34,825 nt of DNA from Deltaproteobacteria bacterium (GTDB lineage Bacteria > Desulfobacterota > Binatia > DP-6), in assembly GCA_005879795.1 (NCBI GenBank), contig VBKJ01000142.1:1-34825 (forward strand). The letters are read 5' to 3'. A program made the position numbers and the translations under genes. Every line of letters begins with the position of its first letter. Positions within the stretch are counted from its first letter, which is position 1. The notes under the pieces are model-generated. The model saw only the letters and a list, made by a program, of their open reading frames with translations, had not been told where the DNA came from and did no database searches. Below are positions 15,974-28,852 of this stretch, piece by piece.

Positions 15974-15983
15974 GAGGCTCGCC

Positions 15984-16712
15984 GTGGACCGCACCGCGGG
16001 CATCCTCGTCATCGGCAACGAGATCCTCTCGGGCAAGGTCGTCGACACCAACTCCCCGTTTCTGACGCGTGAGCTCCGCGCGCTCGGGGTCTCCGTCCGC
16101 CGCATTCTCACCATCCCGGACGAGCTCGACGAGATCGCGACCGCCGTAGCCCAGTTCCACCGCGACTACGACCTGGTCTTCACCTCGGGGGGCGTCGGTC
16201 CCACCCACGACGACGTCACCATGGAGGGCGTGGCGCGCGGGCTCAATCGAAAGGTCATCCGTCACCCCGCCATCGCGGACAAGATCCGCGAGTACTTCCG
16301 CGACAAGGTGAACGAGGCGCGGCTCAAGATGTCGGAGGTCCCGGAGGGCGCCGAGCTGATCGTCGACGGCCGGCTCGGCTTTCCGACCATCAAGTGCGAG
16401 AACATCTACATCCTGCCCGGCATCCCGGAGATCCTGGAGCAGAAGTTCCAGGCCCTGCGCGAACGCTTCGCCGTCTCGCCCTACTTCCTGCGCGTCGTCT
16501 ACACGCGCGAGGGCGAAGGGGCGATCGCCGAGCACCTGAACGCGACCCTGGCGGCGTTCCCCGAGCTGCTGCTCGGCTCGTACCCGAAGATCGGCGACCC
16601 GGAGTTCGCGGTCAAGCTGACGCTCGAGTCGAAGGACGAGGCCTACGTCGAGCGGGCGCTCGCCCACCTCCTCGGCCTGCTCCCCGAGGAAGGGGTCGTG
16701 CGCACGGAGTAG
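15984..16712 (+). CDS. CinA N-terminal (MoCF) domain protein
   Basis: The 242-residue product is a stand-alone MoaB/Mog-type domain like the N-terminal half of CinA. It shows AGILVIGNEILSGKVVDTNS, LVFTSGGVGPTHDDVTMEGVA and the later ILPGIPEILEQKF segment. Full-length CinA (about 410 residues) adds a C-terminal NMN deamidase domain, which is absent. Related single-domain proteins have been linked to FAD/ADP-ribose pyrophosphatase activity or competence; the role here is undetermined. The start is GTG at 15984, with AGAGG about eight bases upstream, 10 bp after the ThDP enzyme gene, so the two are probably cotranscribed. Confidence 0.88.
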   Translation: MDRTAGILVIGNEILSGKVVDTNSPFLTRELRALGVSVRRILTIPDELDEIATAVAQFHRDYDLVFTSGGVGPTHDDVTMEGVARGLNRKVIRHPAIADKIREYFRDKVNEARLKMSEVPEGAELIVDGRLGFPTIKCENIYILPGIPEILEQKFQALRERFAVSPYFLRVVYTREGEGAIAEHLNATLAAFPELLLGSYPKIGDPEFAVKLTLESKDEAYVERALAHLLGLLPEEGVVRTE

Positions 16713-16775: not shown

Positions 16776-17189
16776 GTGAGAACGCTCCGGCGTCTTCCCG
16801 CCGTCGTGTTCCTTCTCTCGGCCGTCGTCGGCTGCGGGCCTGGTGGCGACGATGGTTTTAGGCTGATCCACATCGACGATCTCGTCGCCATGCTCGGCAC
16901 GAGCGAACGAGCGGTCACGGTGCTGGATGCGAATGGCTCCGACTTCCGGGCGAAGGAGGGGGCCATCCCGGGCGCGACCCTCCTCTCGAGCCACAAGGCG
17001 TACGACGTCGACAAGGAGCTGCCGTCCCGCAAGGATGCGCCGCTCGTGTTCTACTGCGCCGACTCGCATTGAAGGGCCTCGCACGAGGCTGCCCGTCGGG
17101 CGGTCCGAGCCGGCTACGTGGACGTCAGCGTCATGGTGGATGGCCTGAAGGGCTGGAAGGCCGCGGGCAAGCCGGTCGTCAAGCCCTAG
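16776..17189 (+). CDS. Rhodanese-like lipoprotein with in-frame TGA (candidate selenoprotein)
   Basis: The frame begins at GTG 16776 after AGAGG and encodes a lipoprotein signal with lipobox VVGC (Cys20), so the protein would be anchored in the periplasm. A rhodanese-like domain follows: RLIHIDDLVAML, VTVLDANGSDFRAKEGAIPG and the active-site loop VFYCADSH with Cys94. The next codon is TGA (17070-17072). The same frame continues without a break for 38 residues (RASHEAARRAVRAGY, then VSVMVDGLKGWKAAGKPV) to TAG at 17187. In related rhodanese lipoproteins the loop is usually YCA-x-x-x-C-x-ASH, so TGA occupies the second Cys position. Reading it as selenocysteine gives 137 residues, the family length. 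A stop there would remove part of the active-site loop and the last helices. The alternative is a Cys-to-stop mutation or base error. Confidence 0.7.
17087..17105 (+). promoter_or_regulatory. SECIS-like hairpin downstream of the in-frame TGA
   Basis: The RNA can form an 8-bp stem (17087-17094 with 17098-17105, including two G-U pairs) closed by a 3-base loop GUC. The loop starts 22 bases after the TGA. Bacterial SECIS elements lie within the coding sequence, with the apical loop roughly 16-37 bases from UGA and a G among the first loop bases, and this hairpin meets both points. A competing 6-bp hairpin (17076-17081 with 17084-17089) overlaps it. Hairpins are common in such GC-rich DNA, so this supports the TGA reading but does not prove it. 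Confidence 0.45.
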
Positions 17190-22910: not shown

Positions 22911-24077
22911 GTGTCCAGTCGCGCGGCGGTGATCACCGGCTGCGGAGCGGTTTCTCCGCTCGGCGTTGGCGTGCGTGCGCTGTGGGACGGCCTCCTCGCC
23001 GGCCACACGGCCATCGCGCCGATCCGCGGCTTCCCGGCCGACGATCTCACCCCGCGCTCGGCGGCGGAGGTACGCGACGTCGCCCGCACGGACCCCGACC
23101 GGGCGGGCGCCCTCGCGCTCGCGGCGGCCACCGAGGCGCTGGCGGATGCCGCGCTCGACCCGCGCGGGCTCGACGCCCGCCGGGTGGCCGTCGCGCTCGG
23201 CACCACGCTCGGGGGCATGCAGCTCTTCGAGCGCTGGATGGCGGGCGGCGAGCCGCTGCCGGCGGGTCTCGGGGCGATCCCGTACTACGGACCCGCGGTT
23301 CGCCTGGCCCGCACGCTCGCTTGCCGCGGGCCGGTCGCCACGGCGCAGCTCGCGTGCGCGTCCGGCACGCACGCGATCGCGCTCGCCGCGCACTGGGTAC
23401 GGACCGGGCGCGCCGACGTCGTGCTCGCCGGCGGGGCGGACCTCCTCTGCCGCTTCGTCGTGTCGGGCTTCAACTGCCTGAGGGCGACGGCCGACGTGGC
23501 GCGCCCCTTCGACGCCGCCCGGCGGGGCCTCGTCCTCGGCGAAGGGGGCGCGATCGTGGTGGTGGAGGACGCCACCCACGCCGCCCGGCGCGGGGCCCGT
23601 GTGCGCGCCCGCGTGCTCGGCGTCGGTGCCGCGGGCGACGCCACGCACATGACGGCGCCCGACCGCGAGGGCGGCGGCGCGGTGCGCGCGCTCCGGGCGG
23701 CCCTGGCCGGCGCCGCGACGCCGCCCGCTGCCGTCGGCCTCGTTTCGGCGCACGGCACCGGCACGCCCTACAACGACGCTATGGAGGCGGCGGCGATCAC
23801 GCGCGTCTTCGGCCGCCGGACGGTCCCCGTCAACTCGATCAAGGGGGCGATCGGCCACACCCTGGGCGCCGCGGGCGCCTTCGAGGCGATCGTGTGCGCG
23901 CGGGTGCTGGCGGAGGGCCGGATTCCGCCCACCGCGGGGCTCGCCACACCCGATCCCGCGTGCGACGGTCTGGATCTCGTCAAGGGGACGGCCCGCGCGC
24001 GCGCCGTCGAGGTCGCGGTCTCCAGCTCCTCCGGATTCGCGGGGACCAACGCCGCGCTCGTGCTCGGCCGCGCATGA
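22911..24077 (+). CDS. Beta-ketoacyl-ACP synthase (FabF-like), first ketosynthase
   Basis: The 388-residue thiolase-fold enzyme condenses acyl chains with malonyl-ACP. The Cys-His-His set is intact: C149 in QLACASGTHAIA, H281 in SAHGTGTPYND and K311/H316 in SIKGAIGHTLGAAGA. The C-terminal SSSSGFAGTNAALVL loop is also typical. The start is GTG 22911 after a short gap without a strong ribosome binding site. A weak promoter (TTGACC at 22870 with an AT-rich -10 near 22892) may lie upstream. It opens an apparent operon of eight lipid or polyketide genes; its stop overlaps the ATG of a ketosynthase-like gene lacking the active-site Cys, suggesting a heterodimer. Confidence 0.9.
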   Translation: MSSRAAVITGCGAVSPLGVGVRALWDGLLAGHTAIAPIRGFPADDLTPRSAAEVRDVARTDPDRAGALALAAATEALADAALDPRGLDARRVAVALGTTLGGMQLFERWMAGGEPLPAGLGAIPYYGPAVRLARTLACRGPVATAQLACASGTHAIALAAHWVRTGRADVVLAGGADLLCRFVVSGFNCLRATADVARPFDAARRGLVLGEGGAIVVVEDATHAARRGARVRARVLGVGAAGDATHMTAPDREGGGAVRALRAALAGAATPPAAVGLVSAHGTGTPYNDAMEAAAITRVFGRRTVPVNSIKGAIGHTLGAAGAFEAIVCARVLAEGRIPPTAGLATPDPACDGLDLVKGTARARAVEVAVSSSSGFAGTNAALVLGRA

Positions 24078-25036
24078 GGGACCCGGTCGCCATCACCGGC
24101 GCGGGCGCGGTGACGTCGCGGGACGTCTCGCTCGACGCGCTCCCCGAGGCGGTGCGGGCGCGCGCGGCACGCGCGGAGCGCGTGACCCAGCTCGTGCTCG
24201 CCGCGGCGGGGCGCGCACTCGTGGCGGCCGGTCTCGATGCGACCGACGGAGAGCCCCGGCCGCGGCTCGGCGTCGTGCTCGGCACGGCATTCGGGTGCTT
24301 CCTCACCAACGCCGCCTACGAGCGGCGGCTGCTCGAGGGTGGCCCCGCGGCCGCGAGCCCGCGTCTGTTCGCGGCCACGGTGTCGAACGCCGCCGCCGGC
24401 GAGCTCGCGATCGCGTACCGGCTGGGCGGGCCGTCGGTGACGCTCACGGCCGGCGCGGCGTCGGGCCTCGTGGCCCTCGGGCATGCCGCCGACCTGGTGC
24501 GCGCGGGCCACGCCGACGCGGTCGTGGCGGGCGGGGCCGACGCGCTCGACGACGACCTCCGCCGCTGGCTCGCCGCCGGCGGTCTCGATTGCGGGCGCGC
24601 GCCCGCCGAGGGGGCGGCGCTCGTCGTGCTCGAGCATGCGGAGCGCGCGCGCGGCCGCGCCGTCCTCGGCACCGTCGAGGGAGTCGGCGCCGGCTTCGAG
24701 CCGGACCCGGCGGGGGAGGGGGCCGGCGCCGGGCTCGCGGCCGCGGTCGCGACGGCGCTGGAGGAGGCCGGGCTCCTGCCCTCCGAGGTCCGCGTGGTGG
24801 TCTCGGCGGCGCCGCCGGCGCTCGCGGGGCTGGAGCGGCCGGCGCTCGGCGGCCTCGAGCCGCGGACGATCGTCCGCCCGAAGGATACCCTCGGCGAGAC
24901 CTTCGGCGCGGCCGGCACCCTCGGCCTGCTCGCCGCGCTGGCCGCGGCGCCGCGCGAGGGCGCGCTCCTCGTCCTCGACGTGTGCGCGAGCGGGCACGTG
25001 GCCGCACTGGTGGCGCGCGCGGGGGATGGGGCGTGA
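24074..25036 (+). CDS. Ketosynthase-like protein without catalytic residues (chain-length-factor-like)
   Basis: The 320-residue product keeps the ketosynthase fold (PVAITGAGAV at the N-terminus, GGPSVTLTAGAASGLVALGHA, VVAGGADALDDDL and a C-terminal GAAGTLGLLAAL). The nucleophile position is Ala (A128 in TAGAASG), the HGTGT motif is missing and the GHxxGAAG His is absent. It is about 70 residues shorter than a normal FabF. Such inactive partners, called chain-length factors, pair with an active ketosynthase in type II polyketide and aryl polyene systems and shape the product cavity. The ATG overlaps the upstream ketosynthase stop (ATGA), which supports a stoichiometric pair. The pairing is inference from order and sequence. 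Confidence 0.85.
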   Translation: MRDPVAITGAGAVTSRDVSLDALPEAVRARAARAERVTQLVLAAAGRALVAAGLDATDGEPRPRLGVVLGTAFGCFLTNAAYERRLLEGGPAAASPRLFAATVSNAAAGELAIAYRLGGPSVTLTAGAASGLVALGHAADLVRAGHADAVVAGGADALDDDLRRWLAAGGLDCGRAPAEGAALVVLEHAERARGRAVLGTVEGVGAGFEPDPAGEGAGAGLAAAVATALEEAGLLPSEVRVVVSAAPPALAGLERPALGGLEPRTIVRPKDTLGETFGAAGTLGLLAALAAAPREGALLVLDVCASGHVAALVARAGDGA

Positions 25037-25788
25037 GCTTCGCCGGCCGGTGCGTGCTGGTCACCGGCGGCTCGCGCGGCATCGGGCGCGCCACCGCCGA
25101 GGCGTTCGCGCGCGCAGGCGCGGCGGTCGCCTTCAACTACTCGCGCGCCGAGGACGAGGCCGAGGCGGCGGAGACGCTCGCCGCGCTCCGCGCCACGGGT
25201 GTGGCGGCGCATGCCGCGCGCGCCGACGTGGCCGACGCCGAGGCGGTGGCCCGCCTCTTCGCCGAGTTGCGCGAGGGGTTTGGCGGCGCGCCGGACATCC
25301 TGGTCAACAACGCCGCCGTCACCCACGACGCGCCCCTCATGCTGGTCACCGAGGAAGCCTGGGACCGCGTCATCGAGACGAACTTGAAGGGCGCCTACCT
25401 GTGTGCCCGCGCCGCGCTGCGCGCCATGATCGCCGCCCGCGGCGGGCGCATCGTGAACGTGGTCTCCCCCGCCGCCTTCCTCGGGCATGAGGGGGCGTCG
25501 GGCTACGCCGCCTCGAAGGGCGGGCTGGTCGCGCTCACGAAGTCGCTGGCGCGCGAGGTCGCGCGCTTCGGCATCACGGTGAACGCGGTCTCCCCGGGCC
25601 TCGTCGACACCAGGCTCGTGGCCGGCGGCGCCGCGGCGCGCCGCGACGAGCTCGCGCGGCAGATTCCGCTCGGCCGCCTCGCCCGCCCCGAGGAGGTCGC
25701 GGCCACCATCCTCTTCCTCGCCTCGCCCGCCGCGTCCTACGTCACCGGGACCACGCTTCACGTGGACGGCGGCCTCGCGATGCTCTAA
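25033..25788 (+). CDS. fabG: 3-oxoacyl-ACP reductase (FabG-type SDR)
   Basis: This NADPH-dependent reductase turns the 3-ketoacyl-ACP made by the ketosynthases into 3-hydroxyacyl-ACP. The 251-residue SDR shows the cofactor motif TGGSRGIGRATAEAFARAG, the NNAA motif (ILVNNAAVT) and the catalytic Ser145, Tyr158 and Lys162 in SPAAFLGHEGASGYAASK. The C-terminal GTTLHVDGG end is typical of FabG. The GTG start overlaps the previous stop (GTGA). As part of this operon it is likely the dedicated ketoreductase of the pathway rather than the housekeeping FabG. Confidence 0.92.
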   Translation: MSFAGRCVLVTGGSRGIGRATAEAFARAGAAVAFNYSRAEDEAEAAETLAALRATGVAAHAARADVADAEAVARLFAELREGFGGAPDILVNNAAVTHDAPLMLVTEEAWDRVIETNLKGAYLCARAALRAMIAARGGRIVNVVSPAAFLGHEGASGYAASKGGLVALTKSLAREVARFGITVNAVSPGLVDTRLVAGGAAARRDELARQIPLGRLARPEEVAATILFLASPAASYVTGTTLHVDGGLAML

Positions 25789-25800
25789 ACAGGGGCGGCC

Positions 25801-26061
25801 ATGGATCGTGACAGCCTCCGCCGCGAGGTGAAGGACCTCCTCGCCACCGGGCTCCGGCTCCAGATCGCCCCGGGCGACATCCCCGACGATGCGCCCATTT
25901 TCGGCGAGACGCTCGGCCTCGACTCGATCGACGCGCTCGAGCTGGTGGTGCTGGTCGAGGATCGCTTCCACGTCTCGATCCCCGACGAGGAGGTCGGGCG
26001 GCGCGCCTTCGGCTCGGTGGACGCGCTCGTCGACTTCATCCTCGCCGAGCGGCCGGGCTAG
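25801..26061 (+). CDS. Acyl carrier protein
   Basis: The 86-residue acidic helical protein carries the growing chain on a phosphopantetheine arm attached to Ser42 in GLDSIDALELV. The ETLGLDSIDALELVVLVEDR helix and a C-terminal DFILAERPG end fit the ACP fold. It stands in the middle of the operon, between the ketoreductase and the second ketosynthase, 12 bp after the former, and is most likely the carrier for all enzymes here. No phosphopantetheinyl transferase is encoded nearby, so a general one must activate it. Confidence 0.93.
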   Translation: MDRDSLRREVKDLLATGLRLQIAPGDIPDDAPIFGETLGLDSIDALELVVLVEDRFHVSIPDEEVGRRAFGSVDALVDFILAERPG

Positions 26062-26067
26062 CTGCGC

Positions 26068-27291
26068 GTGCCCCGACGGGTCGTGATCACGGGGGTCGGG
26101 GTGGTGTGCGCGCTCGGGGGCGACGTGCCGGCGCTCGCGGCGGGGCTCGTCGACGGGCGCTGCGCCATCGGCCCCTTGACGCTCTTCCCCTACCGGGGCC
26201 GCTGCCGGAGCGCGGCGCAGGTGCCCGAGGCGGTGCCGGCCGCGGTGGCCGCGCTGCCGCTCGCCACGACGCGCCGCCTCTCGCGGCCGGACCGGTTCGC
26301 GCTCGCCGCCGCGGCCGAGGCCTGCGGCGCGGCCGGCCTCGACGCGGGTCTCCGGCGGAGGGCGGCGCTCGCGGTCGGGGCGACCACGGGCGGCATGTTC
26401 GAGACCGAGGAAGTCTACCGGCGGCGCCGGGCGGGCGAGGAGCGGCGCTTCCGGCTCTCGCGCCTGTTGGGGACGCCGCTCTCGACCACGGCGGCGGCGG
26501 TGAGCCAGGCGCTCGGCTTCTACGGCCCGCAGGTGACGCTCTCGACCGCGTGCTCGTCGAGCGCGCTCGCGGTGGCCCTCGCCGCCGACTCGATCCGACG
26601 GGGCGAGGCGCGGGTCGCGCTCGCGCTCGGGACCGACGGCCTCTGCCGGCTCACCTACGCCGGTTTCGACGCCCTCCAGGCGCTCGACCTGGACCGCTGC
26701 CGGCCCTTCGACCGCCACCGGCGCGGCCTCTCGCTCGGCGAGGGCGCGGCCGCGCTGGTGCTGGAGGACGCGGAGCACGCCCGCGCCCGCGGCGCCCGCG
26801 CCCACGCCGCCCTCCTCGGCCACGGCACCGCAACGGATGCGCACCATCCGACCGCGCCGCATCCCGAGGGCCGGGGCGCGCTCGCCGCCCTGCGGGCGGC
26901 GCTCGCGGCCGCGGGGCTCCCGCCCGAGGCGATCGACTACGTGAACGCGCACGGCACCGGCACGCCGCAGAACGACGCGATGGAGGTGGGCGTGCTGCGC
27001 GCCGTCTTCGGGTCGCGCCTGGCACGCGTTCCCCTGAGCTCGACCAAGTCGCAGGTCGGCCACTGCCTGGGTGCGGCGGGCGCGATCGAGGCGGCGGTCA
27101 CGGTGGTGGCGCTCGACGAGGGGATCGTCCCGCCCACCGTCGGCCTGCGCGAGCCGGACCCGGCGTGGGCCGACCTGGATCTGGTGCGCACGCCCGGCCG
27201 GCGCGTGCCGCTCGGCGCCGCGCTCACCTCGTCCTACGGCTTCGGCGGCCACAACGTGACCCTCGTCCTCGGGCGGGCGGAGGGGCGATGA
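26068..27291 (+). CDS. Beta-ketoacyl-ACP synthase (FabF-like), second ketosynthase
   Basis: The 407-residue product is a complete ketosynthase with C162 in LSTACSSSALAVA, H295 in VNAHGTGTPQND and K327/H332 in SSTKSQVGHCLGAAGA. GSSGF-type loop residues appear as SSYGFGGHNVTLVLG. Compared with the first ketosynthase it has a classical TACSSS nucleophile loop, so the two are distinct and probably differ in chain length or starter. The GTG start follows the ACP stop by 6 bp, and the 3' end overlaps the second ketosynthase-like gene (ATGA). Confidence 0.92.
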   Translation: MPRRVVITGVGVVCALGGDVPALAAGLVDGRCAIGPLTLFPYRGRCRSAAQVPEAVPAAVAALPLATTRRLSRPDRFALAAAAEACGAAGLDAGLRRRAALAVGATTGGMFETEEVYRRRRAGEERRFRLSRLLGTPLSTTAAAVSQALGFYGPQVTLSTACSSSALAVALAADSIRRGEARVALALGTDGLCRLTYAGFDALQALDLDRCRPFDRHRRGLSLGEGAAALVLEDAEHARARGARAHAALLGHGTATDAHHPTAPHPEGRGALAALRAALAAAGLPPEAIDYVNAHGTGTPQNDAMEVGVLRAVFGSRLARVPLSSTKSQVGHCLGAAGAIEAAVTVVALDEGIVPPTVGLREPDPAWADLDLVRTPGRRVPLGAALTSSYGFGGHNVTLVLGRAEGR

Positions 27292-28451
27292 CGGACGTCG
27301 CGGTGACCGGCATCGGGGTGGTGAGCCCGTTCGGGCACGGGGTCGAGCCCTTCTGGCGCGGCCTCGTGGCGGGCACGTGCGGCCTCCGCCCGATCCGCCG
27401 CTTCGAGGTGCCGCGCGGCGTGGCGCTCGGTGGCGAGGTGCCGCCGCTCGAGCCGCGGGAGCTGGTGACGACCGCGATCGGCCGGCGCATCGACTGGGTG
27501 TCGCTCATGCTGCTGGCGGCCTGCCGCCTGGCGCTCGCCGACGCCGGCCTCGCGGCGCTCGAGCCGGCGCGCACCGGGCTCGGCCTCGGCTCGGCGTGGG
27601 GCAACCTGCAGGAGACGGGAGCCTTCCTCGACCGGCTCTTCACGCGGGGGGGCGGCAACCCGCTCCTCTTCCCGAACCTGGTCTTCAACGCGCCGCTCAG
27701 CTACGCCTCGATCGAGCTCGGCATCACCGGGCCGACCGCGATGCTCTCCGCCGCGGAGGCCTCGGGCGAGGCGGCGATCGCGTGGGGCGCCGAGCAGGTG
27801 GCCGAGGGCGGGGTGGACGTCTGCCTCGCCGGCGGTGCCGACGAGCTCGGCGCAGTGCTCCACCAGGTGCTGCGCGAGGGGCGGGTGGTCGCGTGCGGCG
27901 TGCCGCGTCCGCTCGACCCGGCGGCCGACGGCGCGTGCCCCGGCGAGGGCGCCGCGGTGCTCGTCCTCGAGCCGCTCGCGCGCGCCCGCGCGCGCGGCGC
28001 ACGCATCCGCGCCCGGCTGGTCGCTCCGCCCGGCTTCGCAGTACCTGCGCCGGTGCACGGCTGGGCGCGCGACCCGGTGCCGCTGGCCGAGGGGCTCGCA
28101 CGCACGGTGAGCGATGCCGACGTCGTATTCGCCGCCGCGAGCGGCCGTCCCGAGCTGGACGCGCTCGAGGCGGCGGCGCTCGCGCGCGCGCTCGGCGGGC
28201 GGCGCGTGACGGTCACCGCCGTGCGCGGCGCCCTCGGCGACTTCGGCGCCGCGGGGGCGCTCGCGGCGGCCGCCGCCGCGCTCGCCGTCTCGACCGGCCT
28301 CGTGCCGCCCACCTGCGGGCTCGTGCTCTCGGCACGCGCGGGCCTCGACGTGGTGACGGGCGCGGCGCGGCCGCGCGCCGTGCGGGTCGCGGCTGTGGAC
28401 GGTCTCGCCCGCGGCGGGCTCTGCCGGCCGCTTCGTCTGGAGGCCGTGTGA
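27288..28451 (+). CDS. Second catalytically dead ketosynthase-like protein (chain-length-factor-like)
   Basis: The 387-residue product has a ketosynthase fold starting VAVTGIGVVSPFGHGVEPFW, but the nucleophile position holds Glu (E157 in LSAAEASGEAA), the HGTGT motif is replaced by AASGRPELD, and the Lys/His of GHxxGAAG are replaced in VRGALGDFGAAGAL. In classical chain-length factors the Cys is often Gln; Glu here is a related change. It follows the second active ketosynthase with an ATGA overlap, mirroring the first active/inactive pair. The overlap with the dehydratase gene downstream is again four bases. Confidence 0.88.
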   Translation: MTDVAVTGIGVVSPFGHGVEPFWRGLVAGTCGLRPIRRFEVPRGVALGGEVPPLEPRELVTTAIGRRIDWVSLMLLAACRLALADAGLAALEPARTGLGLGSAWGNLQETGAFLDRLFTRGGGNPLLFPNLVFNAPLSYASIELGITGPTAMLSAAEASGEAAIAWGAEQVAEGGVDVCLAGGADELGAVLHQVLREGRVVACGVPRPLDPAADGACPGEGAAVLVLEPLARARARGARIRARLVAPPGFAVPAPVHGWARDPVPLAEGLARTVSDADVVFAAASGRPELDALEAAALARALGGRRVTVTAVRGALGDFGAAGALAAAAAALAVSTGLVPPTCGLVLSARAGLDVVTGAARPRAVRVAAVDGLARGGLCRPLRLEAV

Positions 28452-28852
28452 AAGCGTCCTTCGATCCCGTCCCGCGCCTGCCCCACGGGACGCCCTTCCT
28501 GCTCCTCGACCGCGTGCTCGAGATCGGCGAGCGGACGGGAGCGTTCTCGAAGCTGGTGAGCGCGGCGGACCCGTGCGTCGGACGTGACGGGCGGCTGCCC
28601 GCCGCCTTCGTGATCGAGGCGCTCGCGCAGGGCGGGGGCGCGCTCCTGGCTGCGCAGCGCGCGCCGGCCGCCGGCTACCTCGCCGCGGTGGACGACTTCC
28701 GCATGCTGGGCGAGGTGCGTGTCGGCGACGAGCTGCGCGTCGAGGTGGAGATCCTGCGCAACTTCGGCGGCGCGATCCTGCTGCGCGGCCGTGTGCTGGT
28801 CGACGGCGAGCTGTGCGCCGAGGGCCGCATCACGCTGAAGCCGCCGCGCTGA
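28448..28852 (+). CDS. FabZ/FabA-like hotdog-fold 3-hydroxyacyl-ACP dehydratase
   Basis: The 134-residue hotdog protein should remove water from 3-hydroxyacyl-ACP to leave a trans double bond. The active-site pair is visible as His13 in RLPHGTPFLLLDRV and Glu57 in AAFVIEALAQGGG; the latter helix is the family signature. The rest (VDDFRMLGEVRVGDELRVEV) forms the expected sheet. It resembles the ApeP/ApeI-type dehydratases of aryl polyene clusters. No enoyl reductase is in the operon, so double bonds would be kept. The GTG start is fused to the preceding stop. Confidence 0.89.
   Translation: MKASFDPVPRLPHGTPFLLLDRVLEIGERTGAFSKLVSAADPCVGRDGRLPAAFVIEALAQGGGALLAAQRAPAAGYLAAVDDFRMLGEVRVGDELRVEVEILRNFGGAILLRGRVLVDGELCAEGRITLKPPR

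Follow-up and report, generated by a model that had tools for sequence, protein, structure and literature searches.

The window, by which we mean the whole stretch of 34,825 nucleotides analysed here, carries on its forward strand a rhodanese-like gene with an in-frame TGA at codon 99. This gene, its upstream neighbour and the elements within it were placed as follows.

15981–16712, + strand: upstream neighbour, a molybdopterin-binding (MoCF_biosynth)/FLAD1-like protein (Pfam), lying 63 nt 5′ of the start of the rhodanese-like gene
16776–17189, + strand: coding sequence of the rhodanese-like predicted selenoprotein, 137 amino acids, with GTG start, codon 99 TGA read as selenocysteine (Sec) and TAG stop
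16776–16835, + strand: putative signal peptide with a lipobox-like AVVGC, assigned by eye from the translation
17055–17057, + strand: TGC codon of Cys94 (in YC), at the canonical rhodanese catalytic Cys position and invariant in all homologues
17070–17072, + strand: TGA codon 99, predicted Sec of a C-x4-U loop, TGA in 28 genomes and TGC or TGT in Cys homologues
17088–17104, + strand: SECIS-like hairpin GCUGCCC-GUC-GGGCGGU, with its triloop at 17095–17097, first base G, 22 nt after the UGA

Translation of the window revealed that the TGA is the sole interruption of the frame. The coordinates, GTG start, TGA position, TAG end and 137-residue read-through given in a first-pass annotation of the sequence were all exact on re-translation, and the residues it had cited (VFYCADSH, RASHEAARRAV and VSVMVDGLKGWK) were all present. 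The read-through product passed the gathering cut-off of Pfam Rhodanese (PF00581; 42.7 bits against 22.2, E 8.2e-11) with a match over residues 34–130, which includes the region after the TGA. Near the N-terminus it reads SAVVGC, to which SAVAGC and SAVVAC correspond as lipobox-like motifs in same-family homologues, and Cys20 would be the putative lipidated residue. Under table 11 the reading frame stops at codon 98, where standard annotation cuts the gene and loses its active-site loop; the same is expected for the 27 other genomes with this TGA, described below. A neighbourhood comparison across genera found no conserved neighbourhood or operon partner, the MoCF_biosynth/FLAD1-like neighbour not being conserved.

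TGA and cysteine at one column

We searched 193 related genomes and then re-read the loci. In 28 genomes, all from the class Binatia and among them the window's own, that of a soil bacterium, TGA occupied the identical column, in contexts such as YCADSHU and YCHNQHUMASHEAARRA and in the general form YCxxxxU-MASHEAARRA. Set against these 28 TGA genes were 14 Cys genes with TGC or TGT at the Sec column, reading YCANTACMASHEAARRA, YCANQVCIASHEAARRA and others there. Cys homologues are present both inside Binatia and in further phyla (Candidatus Binataceae, Candidatus Binatia, Myxococcales, Kofleriaceae and Elusimicrobia); the wider list of Cys homologues came from a contig scan whose pattern included the Cys codon, so that only Cys forms could be returned. 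Sec and Cys copies stood in tandem in three genomes (G014, G064 and G097; loci L033, L034 and L040), and these pairs, with the Myxococcota Cys homologues, form a natural test of what Sec contributes in a sulfur-transfer loop.

The first-pass annotation had compared the gene with a Cys form, putting the TGA at the second Cys of YCAxxxCxASH. That form is now seen in the TGC/TGT homologues, and the placing was correct, with a spacing of C-x4-C/U in which the catalytic position is the first Cys, Cys94, and not the Sec. The comparison of homologues that it had suggested returned TGA at this column in 27 other genomes and Cys in others. It had held that assorted stop codons and frameshifts in relatives would speak against Sec; no other stop codon or frameshift was seen at the column among the homologues re-read, and the TGA was kept.

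Between the window gene and its relatives, dN/dS was 0.15–0.32 over the 35 codons 3′ of the TGA, which means that the part after the UGA is translated. In the same comparisons dN/dS stayed below 1 before the TGA as well as after it, and the value after it was the lower.

The hairpin downstream of the UGA was compared with the published bacterial SECIS (bSECIS) model (PMC13188914), and has the apical triloop with G as first base, 22 nt after the UGA, and the 7-bp stem of that model; its local energy is −13.3 kcal/mol. In the TGA genes it begins 15 nt past the UGA, with the consensus GCYGCCC-GKC-GGGCRG (one exchange in stem and loop in L041). Folding energy was no better than that of shuffles (mean z −0.83 for Sec genes and −0.75 for Cys genes) and does not discriminate in GC-rich DNA, and we therefore asked instead how often synonymous codon choice would yield this exact hairpin, covering the five codons of Ala-Ala-Arg-Arg-Ala and calculating the expectation from the synonymous codons that the genes themselves use. 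All 28 TGA genes formed the loop G and the inner five pairs, where 4.05 would be expected; this count is drawn from related genes and not from 28 independent events. CGC was never used for either Arg in the Sec genes, while CGC CGC stood in all Cys genes with Arg-Arg there. Paired cells made up 97.3% of the hairpin alignment, against 31–66% when the pairings were slid; one pair covaried, from C-G to U-A, and in L041 an Arg had become Trp while a U-G pair was retained. Three of the 14 Cys genes also passed the hairpin test, having kept a related hairpin. At the hairpin site of the Sec copies, the Cys copies of the tandem pairs carry, in other codons, a GC-rich palindrome (CGCGC-GCC-GCGCG), which is perhaps a relic of the SECIS-like hairpin.

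Selenocysteine machinery and rival readings of the TGA

The window's own genome (4.1 Mb in 280 contigs, 99.6% complete by markers) encodes a tRNA-Sec with anticodon UCA, which scored 81.4 bits, over the gathering cut-off, and was called SeC (tca) by ARAGORN (G000:C162). selA, selB and selD were not found in its assembled bin. Three genomes of the same family (G002, G003 and G006) carry the block pepA-cca-mdr-selA-selB, followed by selD in those whose contig extends far enough, and hscA-iscR-...-pepA of the window's genome is collinear with them. The contig concerned (G000:C157, 30159 bases, L096) breaks inside pepA, 4 bases past the match, and the essential gene cca is likewise not found in the bin. 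Since the contig ends in pepA, the order is collinear with that of same-family genomes and cca is missing too, the sel block most likely sits in an assembly gap. True absence of the Sec machinery was set aside as improbable on the synteny with same-family genomes and on the missing essential cca. A search of the bin for the genes expected downstream, on the far side of the gap, yielded no clear orthologues.

The search for selA, selB, selC and selD that the first-pass annotation had called for thus gave a divided answer, with tRNA-Sec found and selA, selB and selD missing from a bin whose contig breaks at their expected place. That a bin called 99.6% complete can lose its sel operon to a single contig break is a trap for the argument that a genome with no selA or selB has no selenoproteins. 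Of the 28 TGA genomes, 27 had a selA and 26 a selB match above the cut-off; G144, one of those without selB, is a bin 85% complete. Some of the tested genomes gave no full selA match; the TGA form was present in just one of these, the window's own, and G035, with neither selA nor selB, holds a stop-free (Cys-type) copy.

Together, the conserved Sec/Cys column, the tRNA-Sec in the same genome, the SECIS-like hairpin, the sel genes of relatives and the probable gap that would explain their absence here lead us to predict, with high confidence, that the product is a selenoprotein: an exported lipoprotein with a single rhodanese domain and Sec at position 99. The first-pass claim of a candidate selenoprotein is supported by all five of these.

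Were the TGA a true stop, whether in a pseudogene or not, the product would be a truncated rhodanese of 98 residues. The end of the table 11 frame at codon 98 and the failure to find selA, selB and selD in the bin both fit such a reading, but the tRNA-Sec is present, the probable assembly gap would account for the missing sel genes, and 27 other genomes have the same TGA with purifying selection on the protein downstream of it; we regard a plain stop as very improbable. Those 27 genomes led us to reject both a pseudogene and a sequencing or assembly error. For the latter, in which codon 99 would truly be TGC or TGT (Cys), the same codon recurs in separately assembled genomes of many genera and the window gene itself has the Sec-specific codons of the hairpin, which leaves it scarcely credible. 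Equally far-fetched is a reassignment of UGA to another residue, Trp or Gly: we found no point in its support, and against it stand the normal reading of neighbouring genes under table 11, the use of TGA as the terminal stop of this same gene in several relatives, the Cys at the homologous position and the tRNA-Sec.

Active site, proposed chemistry and known rhodanese selenoproteins

An AlphaFold model (10 sequences; mean pLDDT 87.6) was matched by Foldseek to the rhodanese structures 6MXV, 2HHG, BH2092, YgaP and GlpE. In a profile alignment Cys94 aligned to the YC of 6MXV and to the active-site Cys of YgaP, and the loop holding the Sec99 stretch exceeded that of 6MXV by two residues. The window protein thus shares the rhodanese fold and the catalytic Cys position with YgaP (Escherichia coli) and 6MXV (Francisella), but the rhodanese domains of these two have no second Cys or Sec and their active-site loops are shorter (that of 6MXV by the two residues mentioned).

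From this anatomy we propose that tRNA-Sec and SelB would decode the UGA as Sec, with the hairpin as guide, and that Cys94 and Sec99 probably form a Cys-Sec pair. Cys94 would accept sulfane sulfur as Cys-S-SH, the donor being thiosulfate, a polysulfide or a persulfide; attack of Sec99 on Cys94 would then free the sulfur as sulfide or pass it on, leaving a Cys94-Sec99 selenenylsulfide to be reset by a periplasmic thiol reductase. Sec99 would serve as a fast, oxidation-resistant resolving residue, and Cys homologues might carry out equivalent chemistry through a disulfide. We rate this sulfur chemistry, deduced from sequence and fold, as having an even chance of being right.

Alternatively, a real selenoprotein might employ Sec99 in redox reactions of peroxides or disulfides and not act as a sulfurtransferase. 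The majority of characterised selenoproteins are oxidoreductases (PMC9312934), and a catalytic loop that is longer than the canonical one and holds a second redox residue would suit that role; the protein has nevertheless kept both its catalytic Cys94 and the fold of a rhodanese, and no peroxidase-type motif was seen, which makes a redox function rather unlikely, if still one to be reckoned with.

Rhodanese selenoproteins as a kind are known: a 2026 review lists five forms, UxxS, UxxG, CxU, UxxG and UxxxxU (PMC13188914). For this reason the description 'candidate new selenoprotein' in the first-pass annotation has to be trimmed. What stands is the family and its lineage, which appear undescribed, a literature search having found no description of the Binatia rhodanese family or of any selenoproteins in Binatia/Binatota; no NCBIfam cut-off was passed by the family. 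It seems to be an undescribed branch of Sec-containing rhodaneses and not a new kind, and extends Sec use to Binatia.

The first of the five forms is a rhodanese-like domain-containing selenoprotein (PF00581, UxxS, WP_010941598.1; PMC13188914). Compared by motif only, it resembles the window family in having one Sec followed by xxS (U-R-A-S or U-M-A-S), and its Sec may lie at the same column. Other members of the phylum also have C-x4-U-x-x-S rhodaneses (L097, L149, L153, L157 and others). We rank the family within the known kind because C-x4-U is common in other classes, often followed by xxS, and because form 1 may share the column. The C-x4-U rhodaneses of those classes fall apart from the Binatia family in a tree made by a quick method from few columns.

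TsoB (NF045694, UxxxxU) has its second U five residues after its first, which is the spacing of Cys94 and Sec99; Sec at this column may thus have been seen before, in TsoB or in form 1. TsoB was the best NCBIfam hit of the window protein, which scored 42.3 bits (E 2.6e-11) against the profile, far from the cut-off of 805 bits, and only the rhodanese part was covered. Unlike TsoB, which is a rhodanese/DsbD fusion-like protein of 572 profile positions with two Sec, the window protein is a predicted stand-alone lipoprotein of 137 residues whose catalytic position holds a Cys. For TsoB the review cites Haft and Tolstoy (2025). In rhodanese_LYCAU (NF041203, form 3, CxU) a small rhodanese has Sec near the catalytic Cys, as the window protein does, but the latter reached 42.4 bits against a cut-off of 115 and has C-x4-U, not C-x-U. 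Tentatively, and at slightly less than an even chance, we suggest a sixth rhodanese selenoprotein form: an exported lipoprotein standing alone, whose Sec would be the resolving residue, not the catalytic one, and would form a selenenylsulfide with the catalytic Cys, together with the related Sec-rhodanese/K+-channel fusion described below.

Other TGA rhodaneses and a further gene cluster

A second TGA gene in Binatia encodes a rhodanese with a C-x4-U loop fused to an Ion_trans_2 potassium channel (Pfam) with the filter SVGYGD.

L098, 1204–2460 (genome G131): rhodanese/K+-channel fusion
L101, 1147–2373 (genome G046): rhodanese/K+-channel fusion
L099 (genome G120) and L102 (genome G136): further fusions of this type

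Their loops read YCGSATU, YCAKFTU and YCASDTU, and hairpins are present after the UGA; the fusion looks like a selenoprotein K+ channel.

In the phylum's other classes, TGA rhodaneses with C-x4-U were widespread (L147 and L149–L164), both as stand-alone exported proteins and as proteins of ~450 amino acids, and L160 has two rhodanese segments with C-x4-U in each. C-x-U TGA rhodaneses, as in NF041203, occur separately in the phylum (L100, L105, L106 and L108), and in L107 the TGA is at the catalytic Cys position itself, with a MoeB-like part downstream. Within the window, 22911–28852 holds a series of reading frames, recognised by eye, that resemble beta-ketoacyl synthase, acyl carrier, ketoreductase and dehydratase genes; the region has the look of a biosynthesis cluster for an aryl polyene or another fatty-acid-like product.
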